Assembly: GCF_003173335.1 (NCBI RefSeq)
Contig: NZ_QGMZ01000018.1
Span: 1 to 64,000, forward strand
DNA from: Methanospirillum stamsii
GTDB taxonomy: Archaea; Halobacteriota; Methanomicrobia; Methanomicrobiales; Methanospirillaceae
Length of the DNA: 64,000 bases
Direction: 5' to 3'
The position numbers were made by a program, and so were the translations under genes. Positions 40,261 through 48,808 of this stretch are shown here, piece by piece (positions within the stretch are counted from its first letter, which is position 1; every line of letters starts with the position of its first letter). The notes under the pieces are model-generated. The model was not told where the DNA came from. It ran no database searches and saw only the letters and a list, made by a program, of their open reading frames with translations.

Positions 40261-40983
40261 TTAAGATTCCGTTATAGATGCGGGGGTGTATGCACTTGGG
40301 GTTAGAATTCCGGTATTCTCTGAGTATCCTGAATTTCCTGTAATCTCGTTAAGTAACCGGGATATCTCCTCCAATTCATCCGGATGCGATACTCCTGCCA
40401 GTTCATACTGGGTTATTGCTGTTTCAAGAGCGATTTGTGCTTCGCTGAACCGATTAAGGGCATATAGTACTCTCCCTTTTCCGGCATAGGATGCCCAGTT
40501 TGTTTTTTCTCCTTTTGCATAAGTGATTGCATCAGTATATGCTTCGAGAGCGGAAAGGTATCGTTTCTGACTCTCAAGGGCAAGTGCAAGGCCATACCAG
40601 GCATCAGCAGATGTAGGCTGCAAATCAATCGCTTTTTTAAATGCAGTGTATGCCGTCCGGTAATTACCTGCTTCAAGAGCAGCATATCCTTCTTTGAAAT
40701 ACCCCTCATATGAAGGAGTAACTTCCGTTGGTGTGGGTATTGGTCCGCGGTCAAGAACGGTGCTCATGATGTCTGAATCAATCTGGGCTAATAACCAACT
40801 TGGTGTCCGGAACAGACTTCCCTGAGAGTATCCCTCTTCATCAATGATTGCCATGTCTGTTACCGATCCGGTAACGAAAAGATTTACAAAACCTGGGACT
40901 CCCTCAATATCAGCGAGAGTTGTCATTCCGGATAATAGCAAACCAGATATCAACAGGGTAATTAGTATCTTCGCATTTGACAT
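40261..40983 (-). CDS. Exported TPR protein, tandem paralogue 1
   Basis: A 240-residue protein with a signal peptide (ILITLLISGLLLSGMTTLA) and three tetratricopeptide repeats between about 95 and 200 (YFKEGYAALEAGNYRTAYTA, DAWYGLALALESQKRYLSAL, GKGRVLYALNRFSEAQIALE). A short motif just after the signal, GYSQGSLFRTPSWLL, is shared with the neighbouring gene, as are the C-terminal features ELAGVSHPDELEEISRLLNE. It is probably a scaffold on the outer membrane face; its partner is not known. Confidence 0.75.
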   Translation of the reverse strand: MSNAKILITLLISGLLLSGMTTLADIEGVPGFVNLFVTGSVTDMAIIDEEGYSQGSLFRTPSWLLAQIDSDIMSTVLDRGPIPTPTEVTPSYEGYFKEGYAALEAGNYRTAYTAFKKAIDLQPTSADAWYGLALALESQKRYLSALEAYTDAITYAKGEKTNWASYAGKGRVLYALNRFSEAQIALETAITQYELAGVSHPDELEEISRLLNEITGNSGYSENTGILTPSAYTPASITES

Positions 40984-41052
40984 ACTTCATTGATCTCATA
41001 CGAGTAATAAATACCTATCCCCCGGATAAGGATAACAAAAAAAGGAGGTTAT

Positions 41053-41697
41053 TCAGATATCATTTGCCTTATTCAGTGCATCCTGAGCTGCATCTACTTC
41101 ACCTAATGCCTCAAGAGCCTTTGCAAGTGACTGGTATATGGATGCTATTTCATCAGGTGATGATTCTCCAGCCTGCTCATATTGACTGATTGCAAGATTA
41201 CATGCTTCCTTTGCTTTTTCATACTGCTGGATAGAAAGGTATGATCTCCCTAATCCTGCGTTCGGCCCCCACTTATCAGCCGCTTTTTTTGAGAAAGATA
41301 ATGACTGGGAAAAAGCATCAACAGCCGAAAGATATCGTTTCTGGTTTTCAAGAGCAAGACCTTTTCCATACCAGGCTTCATAAGATGTACCGTTCATCTG
41401 AATTGCTTTTTCAAATGATTTTTCAGCATCACGGTTACTTCCACCTTCGAGATATGCCCATCCCTCATTTATATAACTCTGGAGTGTTGGAGGGGCCTTT
41501 GTTGGTTCCTGGCTTTTTGTACCCCAGTAATCCAGATTGCTCATATCCTTGTAATCCTCATCCATTTTATCGATAAGGAATTTTGGTGTTTTAAAGATGG
41601 TTCCCTGTGAATATTCCTCATCATCCGATGCAAATACTCCTGTCGGAAGAATAAGTCCGATCAGAAGAACTGAAATAATTAGAACTTTACAATTCAT
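41053..41697 (-). CDS. Exported TPR protein, tandem paralogue 2
   Basis: A 214-residue homologue of the next gene downstream. Signal peptide VLIISVLLIGLILPTGVFA, then EYSQGTIFKTPKFLIDKMDE, then TPR units (EGWAYLEGGSNRDAEKSFEK, AWYGKGLALENQKRYLSAVD, GLGRSYLSIQQYEKAKEACN). About one-third of residues are shared, so the pair arose by tandem duplication. The conserved YSQG(T/S)xF(K/R)TP element is unusual for TPR proteins and may be a docking or processing site. Gap to the paralogue is about 70 bp. Confidence 0.75.
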   Translation of the reverse strand: MNCKVLIISVLLIGLILPTGVFASDDEEYSQGTIFKTPKFLIDKMDEDYKDMSNLDYWGTKSQEPTKAPPTLQSYINEGWAYLEGGSNRDAEKSFEKAIQMNGTSYEAWYGKGLALENQKRYLSAVDAFSQSLSFSKKAADKWGPNAGLGRSYLSIQQYEKAKEACNLAISQYEQAGESSPDEIASIYQSLAKALEALGEVDAAQDALNKANDI

Positions 41698-41751: not shown

Positions 41752-43623
41752 CTATGTATGATTTTTGTCACCATTTTTCTGTTCTACCTCAAACCGCTTC
41801 ATTTCCAGTTCTCTTAAATCCTTTCGCTTTATCTTTCCGGAAATGGTTTTTGGTAGTTCTTTGATGAATTCAATCTTTCTTGGATATTTGTAGGGAGCTG
41901 TAGAGTTTTTCACGTATTCCTGGATATCCCTGGAAATTTTTTCTGATGGTTCAAATCCTGCTTTCAGGACAACAAATGCCTTTACGATGAATCCCCGGAT
42001 GATATCCGGTGATCCGACCACTGCAGCTTCCTGGACTGCGGGGTGCTCAATTATGGCACTTTCCACTTCAAATGGTCCGATTCTATATCCTGAAGCCTTT
42101 ATGACATCATCGTCCCGGCCCACAAACCAGAAATACCCGTCATTATCCTTCATGGCCCTATCTCCGGTATAGTAATACCCTCCCTTGAATGAATTGGCAT
42201 TTGCTTCTTCATTGCCCCAGTATTCCATGAAGAACCCGACTGGTCGTGGTTCGGTTTTGATGGCGATGGAACCTTCTTCTCCAGGTTTTACCTGGTTCCC
42301 ATCCTCATCATGCAGTTCTATTTCCCATCCGGGGGAAGGTTTTCCCATTGAACCATATTTTGGTTCCATACAGGGAAATGTCCCTACACACAGTACGGTC
42401 TCAGTCTGACCATATCCTTCATATATCTCAAGACCGGTTGCATCTTTCCATGCTTTGATTACTTCGGGGTTAATCAGTTCACCAGCACTGACACAATGAC
42501 GAAGTTCTGAAAAATCCCACTTTCGAAGGTCAGCCATTATCAGCATCCGGTAAATGGTGGGTGGTGCACAAAATGTGGTGATTCCGTATTTTTCGATGAG
42601 GGGAAGAAGCTCAGTAGCATTGAACCGGCTCCGGTAATCGTAGACAAAGATTGCTGCACCTTCTATCCACTGCCCGAACAATTTACCCCAGGCGGATTTT
42701 GCCCATCCGGTATCTGAAACGGTGAAATGGAGGTCATTATTCCTGACATCATGCCAGAACCGTGCTGTTACGATATGACCCAGCGGGTAGGAATGTGAAT
42801 GTTGAACCATCTTTGGTTCACCGGTAGTCCCGGAAGAAAAGAAGATAACCATCGGTTCAGATGATTTTGTCTTACGCATCCCCTTCAGGTTGATTATCCG
42901 TGAAGAAACCGGAGCAGGATACATGAGTTCCCGGGTATAAGAGAGCCAGCCGTCACATTCTCCGTCTACGACCATCTTTGTTACCAGAGTCGGGCAATCA
43001 CCCACGATTTCATCAACTTTGTGGGCATTTTCCATGTCTGTGATGACCATTTTTGCTTCAGCAGTATTGACCCGGTAGGCGATGTCCTTTGGAGTCAGCA
43101 TCGTTGGTGCAGGGATATATATTGCCCCGATTTTGATGAGTGCCACGGTCATAAACCACCATTCCGGCACCCGGTGAAGCATAATAAGAACCCGGTCTCC
43201 TTTTCCGATCTTGTACTTGATCATCATGTTGACGATCTCGTTGGATCTTCTGGAAATGTCACGGAAAGTGAAAAATTTTTCTTCTCCCTTCTGGTTTGTC
43301 CACACCATCGCGATCTTATTTCTGTCCTTTTTCGCCCAGGCATCCACGACATCAAAACCAAAATTAAAGTATTCCGGAACTTCAATGCGGAAATTCCGGT
43401 ATGTTTCGTCGTAGCTTTGCATATTGTGCCGGCGTGGAGCCGGTGAATCATCAATGATGGGACTTGATTGTCCACATGGATAAATCCCATATCCGGACAG
43501 TTTGCGAAGTTGTCTGGTGCATGCTTCATTTATCCAGTCAGAGCGGGATATCTGCCTGACGACACTTTCCTGATCAACCCGGCGGGTCAGATCATCATCC
43601 ATCGAAATTGAGAAACGAACCAT
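41752..43623 (-). CDS. AMP-forming acyl-CoA synthetase with N-terminal ribbon-helix-helix DNA-binding domain
   Basis: A 623-residue fusion. Residues 1-42 are a CopG-type ribbon-helix-helix: MVRFSISMDDDLTRRVD then ISRSDWINEACTRQL. A Pro-rich linker leads to Met68, where normal family members begin (YDETYRNFRIEVPEYFNF). The enzyme part is complete: SSGTTGEPKM (263-272), EGYGQTET, YYTGDRA, GYRIGPFEVESA and the C-terminal lysine in PKTISGKIKRKD. It should activate a carboxylic acid with ATP and CoA through an acyl-AMP; the acid is not known. The oxidoreductase genes just upstream suggest branched-chain or aryl acids. An 18-bp palindrome lies seven bases before the ATG, so the fused domain probably represses its own gene. 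Confidence 0.85.
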   Translation of the reverse strand: MVRFSISMDDDLTRRVDQESVVRQISRSDWINEACTRQLRKLSGYGIYPCGQSSPIIDDSPAPRRHNMQSYDETYRNFRIEVPEYFNFGFDVVDAWAKKDRNKIAMVWTNQKGEEKFFTFRDISRRSNEIVNMMIKYKIGKGDRVLIMLHRVPEWWFMTVALIKIGAIYIPAPTMLTPKDIAYRVNTAEAKMVITDMENAHKVDEIVGDCPTLVTKMVVDGECDGWLSYTRELMYPAPVSSRIINLKGMRKTKSSEPMVIFFSSGTTGEPKMVQHSHSYPLGHIVTARFWHDVRNNDLHFTVSDTGWAKSAWGKLFGQWIEGAAIFVYDYRSRFNATELLPLIEKYGITTFCAPPTIYRMLIMADLRKWDFSELRHCVSAGELINPEVIKAWKDATGLEIYEGYGQTETVLCVGTFPCMEPKYGSMGKPSPGWEIELHDEDGNQVKPGEEGSIAIKTEPRPVGFFMEYWGNEEANANSFKGGYYYTGDRAMKDNDGYFWFVGRDDDVIKASGYRIGPFEVESAIIEHPAVQEAAVVGSPDIIRGFIVKAFVVLKAGFEPSEKISRDIQEYVKNSTAPYKYPRKIEFIKELPKTISGKIKRKDLRELEMKRFEVEQKNGDKNHT

Positions 43624-43690
43624 CTATACTAATCTGGTGCACCAGATTGTAAAAAAGTTGTGAATTAGTGAACCAGTATTTATATGTGTG
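43624..43690 (-). promoter_or_regulatory. Promoter and operator of RHH-acyl-CoA synthetase gene
   Basis: Read on the minus strand, CATATAAATA (43677-43686) is a TATA box predicting a start near 43656. AATCTGGTGCACCAGATT (43631-43648) is a perfect 18-bp palindrome in the short leader. A degenerate copy lies between TATA box and start site; on the plus strand it reads AATTAGTGAACCAGTATT (43663-43680). The GTG cores of the two sites are 31 bp apart, three helical turns. This is what a cooperative ribbon-helix-helix repressor would use. It also shows the gene has its own promoter besides any read-through from the oxidoreductase genes. Confidence 0.7.
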
Positions 43691-43710: not shown

Positions 43711-43974
43711 TTACTCAGGGGTAGTGCTTCCTTCGCGGACCATCTCTATGGCTTTTTTCGGGCATTCTGCTGCACAGATCCCACAACCCTTACAAAAGAC
43801 GAGGTCAATATCATAATTTTCATCAATGACCCCGTCAGGGCAGTACATGGCACACATTCCGCAAGCATTGCATTTATCCTTGTCCACAACCGGTCTGAAA
43901 ACCCTCCAGGTACCGGTTTTTCCACATGCTCCCTCTACAGGCCGGGAAATTGCAAGTCTTTCTCTCTCTGCCAT
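43711..43974 (-). CDS. porD: 2-oxoacid:ferredoxin oxidoreductase, delta (ferredoxin) subunit
   Basis: An 87-residue subunit with two 4Fe-4S motifs: CNACGMCAMYCPDGV and CKGCGICAAECPKKA. Before them is the RPVVDKDKCNAC lead typical of PorD. It transfers electrons from the catalytic subunits to ferredoxin. I use ATG 43974, just after the gamma stop (one base apart, TGA-T-ATG overlap region), rather than a longer frame to 44025. Last gene of a beta-alpha-gamma-delta set. Confidence 0.85.
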   Translation of the reverse strand: MAERERLAISRPVEGACGKTGTWRVFRPVVDKDKCNACGMCAMYCPDGVIDENYDIDLVFCKGCGICAAECPKKAIEMVREGSTTPE

Positions 43975-43975
43975 A

Positions 43976-44503
43976 TCAGACCAGCTCCTCGAATGCCATA
44001 AGTGCAGCCTGATAATTCCTCTCATCAGAGAACATCTCTTTTATCGCCGCACTTGCTGACTCTCGTGAGAAAAGACCCATTTTTGCCAGTGCCCCAATGA
44101 CGGGGGTATTCAGGATTGGGCTTCCTGCAACGATGAGGTTAATTTTCAGTGCGATTCCGGTCAGGTCAACAAGACTTACCTTGTATCCTGCTGCCTTTGC
44201 CGGAACCTCAGTTGCGTTGATAAGCACTTTTCCATCAGGTTTAAGCCCGTCAAATACATTAACCAGGTCAATAATTGAGGGATCCAGTACTACAACCAGG
44301 TCCGGGTTATGAATCTGTGAATAAATTTTGATCGGCTTGTCATCGATCCTGATAAACGAGACAATGGGCGCCCCACGTCTCTCTGCTCCATAGAATGGTG
44401 CCGCAGTTGCATATTTACCGTCTCTGAAGGCAGCTAAAGCCATCAGTTTGGCTGCAGTGACTCCTCCCTGCCCTCCTCGTGAATGAAGACGTATCTCAAA
44501 CAT
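43976..44503 (-). CDS. porG: 2-oxoacid:ferredoxin oxidoreductase, gamma subunit
   Basis: A 175-residue subunit. EIRLHSRGGQGGVTAAKLMA at the N-terminus and APFYGAERRGAPIVSFIRID are the conserved gamma-subunit motifs. This subunit binds part of the CoA site. It begins directly after the alpha gene (adjacent codons) and is followed by the delta gene. The symbol por is used for family; the true substrate could be pyruvate or branched-chain 2-oxoacids. Confidence 0.85.
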   Translation of the reverse strand: MFEIRLHSRGGQGGVTAAKLMALAAFRDGKYATAAPFYGAERRGAPIVSFIRIDDKPIKIYSQIHNPDLVVVLDPSIIDLVNVFDGLKPDGKVLINATEVPAKAAGYKVSLVDLTGIALKINLIVAGSPILNTPVIGALAKMGLFSRESASAAIKEMFSDERNYQAALMAFEELV

Positions 44504-45610
44504 TCAGGCATCAACTCCGAACCAGGTTTCCTCTCCAATACGCCGGTTCCTGATAAATCCGGCAATATCGTTGTATGTTACTTCCTGACCACCAATTCCA
44601 GCAATAACATTGTAGCACTGCCTTCCGGTCTTCGCCCGAATGGATGATGCCAGGATACCACCAAAACCAAAGGAATAGTTACGGTCAATCACAACAAGTT
44701 CCCGGTCCCCAAGGTCAAGCTCCGGGAATGGCCGGATCCACCTGACCCGCATGGCACCGGCTTTTACTCCTTCATCACGCAGGATGTCAACCGCTACTTC
44801 TGCTTCCTTACCAAGGGTTCCCATGGAAAGTACCAGGACCTCAGCATCCTCACACCGGTAATTCTCGGTCCATGAGTATTTTCTGCCAAACTTTGTTGCA
44901 AATGCATCTTCAGTTTCACGAATGACTGCAACCGAATCACGCATGGAGCGTTCGATATCATACCGGATCCGGAAATAATCTGTGGAAGGGGTCATACATC
45001 CATACCCTGCCGGTGCTTTGGTGTCAATTGCATGATCCAGCATCAGTGGCGGGATGAAGTCCCCGATTTCGCTTTCTTCAAGTTGCTGAGTGATGTGTGA
45101 CAGGGAAAATCCGTCAAGGTTTATCATGACCGGGAGGTAGACCCTGCGGTCTTCTGCAATCCTGAATGCCATGATGGTTGCATCATAGGCTTCCTGCACG
45201 GTTGCAACGTAGACCTGCAGCCATCCGGTATCCCGTGCCTGGAGTGAATCAGTATGTTCAGCCCAGACATTCCATCCTGGTCCAAGAGCACGGTTTACAT
45301 TGGCCATAACAATTGGAAGCCTTGCCCCTGCTGCCCAGTTTACCATTTCATGCATATACAAAAGGCCGTGTGAACTGGTTGCAGTAAATGTCCGGATTCC
45401 GGTGATGCTTGCACCGATACAGGCAGCCATGGCAGAATGCTCACTCTCAACCGGAATGTACTTGGACTTTAAACTTCCGTTTGTTACATAATTTGCAATC
45501 TGTTCAACAATTTCAGTCTGCGGGGTAATCGGGTATGCAGCGACAACCGCAGGAATGGCCTGTCGTACTGCTGCAGCAACTGCATTATTACCGGTTGAGA
45601 TGGTCAGCAT
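44504..45610 (-). CDS. porA: 2-oxoacid:ferredoxin oxidoreductase, alpha subunit
   Basis: A 368-residue subunit. AAYPITPQTEIVEQIANYV at 22-40 is the alpha-subunit start; YIPVESEHSAMAACIGASI and TATSSHGLLYMHEMVNWA follow. The segment ALGPGWNVWAEHTDSLQARD resembles pyruvate:ferredoxin oxidoreductase more than 2-oxoglutarate enzymes. It overlaps the beta stop by seven bases. With the beta subunit it decarboxylates a 2-oxoacid to acyl-CoA, or runs in reverse for CO2 fixation in methanogens. Confidence 0.85.
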   Translation of the reverse strand: MLTISTGNNAVAAAVRQAIPAVVAAYPITPQTEIVEQIANYVTNGSLKSKYIPVESEHSAMAACIGASITGIRTFTATSSHGLLYMHEMVNWAAGARLPIVMANVNRALGPGWNVWAEHTDSLQARDTGWLQVYVATVQEAYDATIMAFRIAEDRRVYLPVMINLDGFSLSHITQQLEESEIGDFIPPLMLDHAIDTKAPAGYGCMTPSTDYFRIRYDIERSMRDSVAVIRETEDAFATKFGRKYSWTENYRCEDAEVLVLSMGTLGKEAEVAVDILRDEGVKAGAMRVRWIRPFPELDLGDRELVVIDRNYSFGFGGILASSIRAKTGRQCYNVIAGIGGQEVTYNDIAGFIRNRRIGEETWFGVDA

Positions 45611-46509
45611 CCTTCAGCCTCCGCCTTGAGCATCCGTAAATTCCGTTCCATTTCGCCCCGAACTGTTTTTACCTGTTCCTCTTTTAATCCGGAGAATCTG
45701 CCCTGCATTTTGAAATAATCTTCAAGCGGGGCTGGTTTTATCATTGCAGCTTTTGTAGGTCCGCTAATCGTGAGGAGATCGTATTCACGTTCGTACATCG
45801 CCCAAAGTCCGGTCTTTACAGCCATCTTACCCACTTCTATGGTCTTTGAGGCATCGTACCGCCATCCCGGAGGACAGGGAGCCAGGATATGCATAAACTT
45901 CGGGCCCTTAATAGAGAGGGCTTTTTGGACCTTTTTTGCCAGATCCTGAGGATATGCACTGCACGCGGTGGCCATGTACGGCAGATTGTGTGCTGCAATG
46001 ATCCTATCAAGGTCTTTCTTTTTGTGCACTTTTCCACCCGGAGTTGTGGTGGTCCGTGCACCAATCGGTGTTGATCCTGATCGCTGCATACCGGTGTTCC
46101 CATATGCCTCGTTATCATAGCAGATATACAGGAAGTTGGTTTCACGTTCCAGTGCTCCTGAAAGGGCCTGAATACCGATATCAACCGTTCCCCCGTCACC
46201 TGCATAGGCGATTACGTTCGTATTTTTTCCCATGGATTCGAATGCAGCTGCCATCCCTGATGCAACTGCAGCAGCAGCAGCAAATGCTACGTTGTAGACC
46301 GGGATGTTAAAAGCGGTATTCGGCCAGACCCCCTGCAGAACACTAGTGCAGCAGGCGGGAACTACCAGGACAGTGTCCGGACCAGCCGCCTTGAGCACGT
46401 GTCTGAGAATGAGGGACGAACTGCACCCTGCACAAGCAGAGGTACATTTACAGATATATTCAGTCGCAGAAGTCCCTGACATGACAATCTGTACCCGTAT
46501 GTCTGTCAT
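45604..46509 (-). CDS. porB: 2-oxoacid:ferredoxin oxidoreductase, beta (thiamine-diphosphate) subunit
   Basis: A 301-residue subunit and first gene of the set. CKCTSACAGCSSSL near the N-terminus holds cluster-ligand cysteines. AYAGDGGTVDIGIQAL with YDNEAYGNTGMQRSGSTP forms the thiamine-diphosphate and metal site; HILAPCPPGWRYD is the PorB signature. The gene order beta-alpha-gamma-delta differs from the gamma-delta-alpha-beta order common for methanogen POR. This, with the neighbouring acyl-CoA synthetase, leaves a 2-oxoisovalerate or aryl-pyruvate role possible. Confidence 0.85.
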   Translation of the reverse strand: MTDIRVQIVMSGTSATEYICKCTSACAGCSSSLILRHVLKAAGPDTVLVVPACCTSVLQGVWPNTAFNIPVYNVAFAAAAAVASGMAAAFESMGKNTNVIAYAGDGGTVDIGIQALSGALERETNFLYICYDNEAYGNTGMQRSGSTPIGARTTTTPGGKVHKKKDLDRIIAAHNLPYMATACSAYPQDLAKKVQKALSIKGPKFMHILAPCPPGWRYDASKTIEVGKMAVKTGLWAMYEREYDLLTISGPTKAAMIKPAPLEDYFKMQGRFSGLKEEQVKTVRGEMERNLRMLKAEAEGC

Positions 46510-48649: not shown

Positions 48650-48790
48650 CCGGATACAGGTTATATTCTCTATCAGAAAATTGCATCTTTTCCTAGAAAT
48701 AATCCGGAGCATATTTTGGTCTGTATATTTCCATGACGAAAGGTTCATGAACCTGAACCCTGATACGATAACAGCAAAGAAAAAATCTAA

Positions 48791-48808
48791 GGTTTATAAT
48801 TATAAACC
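48791..48808. promoter_or_regulatory. Perfectly palindromic TATA element, bidirectional promoter of recQ and cheW
   Basis: GGTTTATAATTATAAACC is an 18-bp perfect palindrome that reads as a TATA box on both strands. It lies about 35 bp before the cheW ATG (48833) and 43 bp before the longest recQ start. Start sites about 25 bp out on either side fit short leaders. It is the only promoter-like element in the gap. Confidence 0.6.

Follow-up and report, generated by a model that had tools for sequence, protein, structure and literature searches.

Only a few enzymes are known to use a fused DNA-binding domain to repress the gene that encodes them, and PutA is the standard case. PutA has been described as autogenously repressing transcription of the put regulon (PMC5293562). 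The acyl-CoA synthetase fusion of Methanospirillum stamsii analysed here shares with trifunctional bacterial PutA an N-terminal ribbon-helix-helix (RHH) domain, of RHH fold, on a metabolic enzyme, and with PutA-type enzyme-autorepressors the combination of an RHH-enzyme fusion and an operator-like site at its own promoter. PutA, however, joins its RHH to proline/P5C dehydrogenase, works at a bacterial promoter, has a regulon and switches by membrane association, whereas the fusion is an AMP-forming acyl-CoA synthetase under an archaeal promoter, and the searches turned up a single target for it. No proline dehydrogenase or P5C dehydrogenase domains were detected in the fusion with Pfam, which identified an AMP-binding enzyme instead. 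A likeness between a PutA half-site GTTGCA and GGTGCA is unconfirmed and was not used as evidence. A second point of comparison is NikR, which contacts DNA through strand residues 3, 5 and 7 and has the operator GTATGA-N16-TCATAC. The strand pattern of R, T/S, T/S and the use of spaced inverted half-sites are common to both, but NikR carries a metal-binding domain rather than an enzyme and its half-site sequence differs; Pfam found no C-terminal nickel-binding domain of NikR in the fusion, where the catalytic acyl-CoA synthetase takes its place. The closest solved structure to the catalytic part is that of MacsMa (PDB 3etc), the medium-chain acyl-CoA synthetase of Methanosarcina acetivorans, a 2-methylbutyrate-CoA ligase, which prefers 2-methylbutyrate (PMC10455477). 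Nothing in MacsMa aligns with the first 65 residues of the fusion, so it lacks such an RHH.

The fusion gene occupies positions 41752–43623, minus strand, of the window (the whole 64,000-nucleotide stretch of M. stamsii DNA that was analysed, from contig NZ_QGMZ01000018.1). It encodes 623 amino acids with Pfam AMP-binding and AMP-binding_C domains, and orthologues match from residue 1. The initial annotation had proposed that the enzyme starts with a CopG-type RHH spanning residues 1–42 (43498–43623, minus strand), and this is borne out by both profile and model. When the 49 N-terminal residues were isolated, PF01402 matched residues 3–34 at 20.8 bits (cut-off 20.5), while on the whole protein the score was 15.0 bits, below the cut-off; across the fusion homologues, 77 of 78 N-termini matched at E ≤ 0.01. 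The best solved-structure relative of the RHH profile was NikR (1q5v, E 3.8e-4), with the alignment running from residue 1. An AlphaFold model of residues 1–49 (pLDDT 87.5) has helices at 10–22 and 27–44 after an extended segment, and its structure matches were nearly all RHH proteins, including NikR, CopG, Arc and the RHH of PutA (2jxg). TM scores were mostly 0.6–0.87 and E-values weak, the latter because the modelled chain is only 49 residues long. The RHH strand pairs only in a dimer and the monomer alone was modelled; an AlphaFold model of the entire protein, built from only 18 sequences, was of low quality (pLDDT 56) and was left unused. By profile and model, residues 1–42 are thus an RHH fold domain, with DNA binding inferred only indirectly, from the conserved contact residues and site. 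R3 and S5 are present in all 78 fusions and position 7 is T or S in every one, making R3, S5 and S7 the candidate DNA-contact residues in M. stamsii; S26-R/K27-S28 and C35 are also kept. Mean pairwise identity is 55% in the RHH, 21% in the variable linker (residues 43–67; 43423–43497, minus strand) and 77% in the catalytic part, and dN/dS of the RHH within Methanospirillum is 0.02–0.12, indicating purifying selection.

The fusion is conserved across the Methanomicrobiales, with 77 named loci, and a genome search recovered it in 19 genera of four families. Open-frame orthologues from residue 1 are present in Methanospirillum, Methanoregula, Methanoculleus, Methanogenium, Methanomicrobium, Ca. 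Methanofilum and others. A phylum sample of 393 genomes gave 38 matches, all within Methanomicrobiales, and no fusion was seen outside that order in this sample. Homologues with a conserved start at Met68 and no RHH upstream would have refuted the initial annotation; instead, homologues keep the RHH and its start. Literature searches found no description of an RHH-acyl-CoA synthetase, though most subscription papers lay outside the search. In many other genera the gene upstream of the fusion is an RHH-less paralogue, and in a quick tree the catalytic parts of Methanoculleus fusions (L079, L090, L096–L098, L100, L102, L104–L106, L108–L111, L113–L117) fall near RHH-less paralogues and not other fusions. 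From this grouping, an RHH-operator cassette may have been swapped between tandem copies, or lost more than once.

The 18-bp perfect palindrome that had been described seven bases before the ATG is present at 43631–43648: AATCTGGTGCACCAGATT lies seven bases ahead of the minus-strand ATG at 43623. It contains the proximal half-site (GCACCA, minus strand, 43635–43640) and, with up to one mismatch allowed, has a single match in the 3.74-Mb genome. A perfect 18-mer palindrome is not exceptional by itself, because the window holds one other besides AATCTGGTGCACCAGATT. The distal half-site, TGGTTCA (43669–43675, minus strand; consensus TGGTGCA), lies N29 from the proximal GCACCA; its left half TGGTTC (43670–43675) has one mismatch, and the spacing is N29 rather than the N26/27 typical of the order. 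The pattern TGGTTCA-N24–30-TGCACCA occurs once in the home genome, at the fusion promoter. The initial annotation had also described a degenerate copy of the palindrome 31 bp upstream. Its position is correct here, as TGGTTCACTA starts at −52 and TGGTGCACCA follows 31 bp downstream, at −21, but the direct repeat is not general: other genera show an inverted pair. We therefore regard the M. stamsii direct repeat as a local form of the inverted pair, and the 31-bp direct repeat was dropped as a general design. In Methanospirillum the proximal half-site has been elaborated into the perfect palindrome. Elsewhere in the window, two more perfect palindromes, AGGTTCATGAACCT (48741–48754) and GGTTTATAATTATAAACC (48791–48808), lie at the gap that separates two divergent genes, one RecQ-like helicase gene and one CheW-like gene.

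Sites were counted before 78 fusion genes, namely the 77 named loci and the M. stamsii window. These come from related species and so do not represent 78 independent events. TGGTGC-N25–30-GCACCA with no more than two mismatches in 12 positions precedes 76 of the 78, so that absence of the palindrome before fusion orthologues, the other outcome that would have counted against the initial annotation, gave way to a paired site that is nearly always there. The pair is perfect in 47 of 78 fusions, compared with 0.019% of dinucleotide shuffles, and across the order it takes the form TGGTGC-N26/27-GCACCA, flanking the promoter core. The left half-site lies at approximately −52 relative to the ATG and the right mostly at −20; the right is free of mismatches in 72 fusions and has a single one in the other six, while the sequence to the left of the distal half-site is unconserved. 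The spacing of N26/27 is about one turn longer than that of NikR. One of the two exceptions, L047, has its pair at N17 and −63, and the same holds for L018 and L019; in these three Methanospirillum relatives the spacing is thus about one helical turn shorter. In the other exception, L051, the left half-site is unrecognizable, and it is degenerate in L088 and in the group L072/L083/L085/L086. Four Methanoculleus loci (L096, L102, L104 and L114) have a second copy of the paired site approximately 60 bp further upstream, at about −115 from the fusion ATG.

Between the half-sites, the base profile of other genera has a conserved C-R-A-A-A followed by T-x-A-T-A/T-A, which we infer to be an archaeal BRE/TATA element approximately 26 bp before the ATG; this distance suggests little or no leader. 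In the aligned promoters, the half-sites flank this TATA-like core promoter. The M. stamsii counterpart is CACAACTTTTTTACAAT (43646–43662, minus strand), a candidate core promoter between the half-sites, at the BRE/TATA-like position of other genera and with its function inferred. The initial annotation had taken TATAAATA (43677–43684, minus strand) as the TATA box. This second candidate, again of inferred function, is kept in several Methanospirillum, but ACTTTTTTACAAT, between the sites, occupies the core promoter position of other genera, so TATAAATA is possibly not the TATA box in use.

The matching place was also searched in genes that lack the RHH. There was no paired site there in any of 27 RHH-less paralogues directly upstream of a fusion, nor in any of 19 homologues without the RHH that came from other genera and families and included two identical ones. 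Hits with two and one mismatches were obtained for the L081 and L089 paralogues, respectively, but more than 100 bp upstream, and the best scores among the 19 homologues had 2–5 mismatches and were off position. In these comparisons, the paired site is strictly linked to RHH-bearing genes. Across 35 Methanoculleus genomes, the sole recurrent AT-rich site precedes the fusion, and a family-wide pattern search yielded no recurrent second promoter target. A wider regulon was considered and rejected: scattered matches arose at about the control rate, or recurrent matches were coding-like. One promoter-like match in genome G054, approximately 200 bp before a TATA-binding-protein gene, was taken as chance; no fusion was found in that genome.

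Protein and site also change together. In Ca. Methanofilum and a relative (L056, L064), RHH residue 2 is G, not V, and the half-sites are TGGTTC/GAACCA. L107 is unique in having L4, I8 and K27, and shows TGCTGC and GCAGCA at the canonical −52 and −20; these half-sites were read by eye, and the automatic fit allows GCACCA at −17 as well. Both half-sites are hence altered symmetrically in each of two lineages with an unusual RHH, but this covariation comprises two single events, recognized post hoc. The closest stand-alone RHH relative is an RHH-coiled-coil protein (L192, G079:C47, 1060–1516) encoded on a small contig that also has a primase-like gene of plasmid/virus type and is probably a plasmid or virus. 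Before and inside the gene for this protein, GCACCA occurs seven times (1.16 expected), mostly at intervals of 10–11 bp. A second stand-alone relative (L194, G071:C3, about 1477–1984) has eight GCACCA (1.9 expected), less tightly placed, with copies inside the gene and an inverted GCACCA/TGGTGC pair upstream.

With a fused RHH and a matching paired site at its own promoter, and no other recurrent target found, the enzyme is very probably a regulator of its own gene. In our proposal, the NikR-like RHH would dimerize and bind the two inverted TGGTGC half-sites; the bound protein would cover the BRE/TATA region and start site and repress transcription of its own gene, and substrate or catalytic intermediates would relieve that repression. 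We hold with good confidence that this is an archaeal PutA-like acyl-CoA synthetase that binds and represses its own promoter, although there are no binding, expression or start-site data. Self-binding and autoregulation are very likely; that the effect is repression is likely, its sign being inferred. Some RHH proteins both activate and repress, and the distal half-site is upstream of where the core promoter is inferred to be, so the fusion could bind the site and activate the promoter, or work both ways depending on ligand. We think this improbable: the half-sites flank the core promoter and the proximal one separates the TATA-like element from the start codon, so that protein bound to it would be expected to block RNA polymerase.

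The link between site and enzyme could itself be questioned. In the absence of binding data, and with further RHH proteins in Methanomicrobiales, a different transcription factor might own TGGTGC-N-GCACCA, the enzyme RHH binding elsewhere or nowhere. That is decidedly unlikely, as the site tracks genes that carry the RHH and is absent ahead of paralogues without it from those same genomes. Nor did a second recurrent target turn up in the genomes searched; the half-sites alter with the RHH in two lineages, and a stand-alone RHH relative has GCACCA repeats around it. Inverted repeats can also form RNA stems, but a leader hairpin or attenuator is barely tenable here: the distal half is upstream of the inferred core promoter and would not be transcribed, the loop would be 25–30 bases, and the spacing shifts by about a turn of the DNA helix. 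It is equally hard to credit that the RHH, a domain type that dimerizes, is merely an oligomerization module beside a motif that arose by chance or as a core-promoter feature, given that no fusion departs from R3, S5 and S/T7 on the strand presumed to face DNA and that the motif is far above shuffles and absent before paralogues. Autorepression by the fusion remains our preferred reading. It would be a PutA-like solution in archaea with an unrelated enzyme, conserved across a methanogen order, and, since a clean operator covaries with the protein, the target can be tested together with the recognition rule.

The catalytic part (41752–43422, minus strand) is matched by PF00501 and PF13193, and aligns with 3etc over residues 66–607 (E 3.6e-183). 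The SGTTG, YGQTE, GD and C-terminal SGK motifs are kept in all 18 aligned sequences, while the NCBIfam MbcS model scored 504 bits, below its cut-off of 850. The substrate, inferred by homology, is a short/medium-chain and probably branched-chain acid. Large domain rotation is known in the acyl-CoA synthetase superfamily. We tentatively suggest, at somewhat short of even chances and without a gating model, that acid and ATP, acyl-AMP or CoA, once bound, free the RHH domains from the operator with the help of domain rotation. If so, the level of synthetase would follow acid supply without a separate regulator, making this an archaeal trigger enzyme of a previously undescribed type. Literature searches found no paper on how Methanomicrobiales regulate organic-acid use for biosynthesis, and the fusion would offer a direct handle on this.

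Upstream of the fusion in the window is an operon for a four-subunit 2-oxoacid:ferredoxin oxidoreductase (beta, alpha, gamma, delta; 43711–46509, minus strand), a likely metabolic partner of the synthetase; among loci examined, this linkage is confined to Methanospirillum. Conversion of an acid to its CoA ester and then to a 2-oxoacid by reductive carboxylation is established pathway logic, and acyl-CoA from the fusion may feed reductive carboxylation by the oxidoreductase for amino-acid synthesis. Downstream of the fusion are genes for two related TPR-repeat proteins (window 40261–41697), found in the same order in other Methanospirillum.
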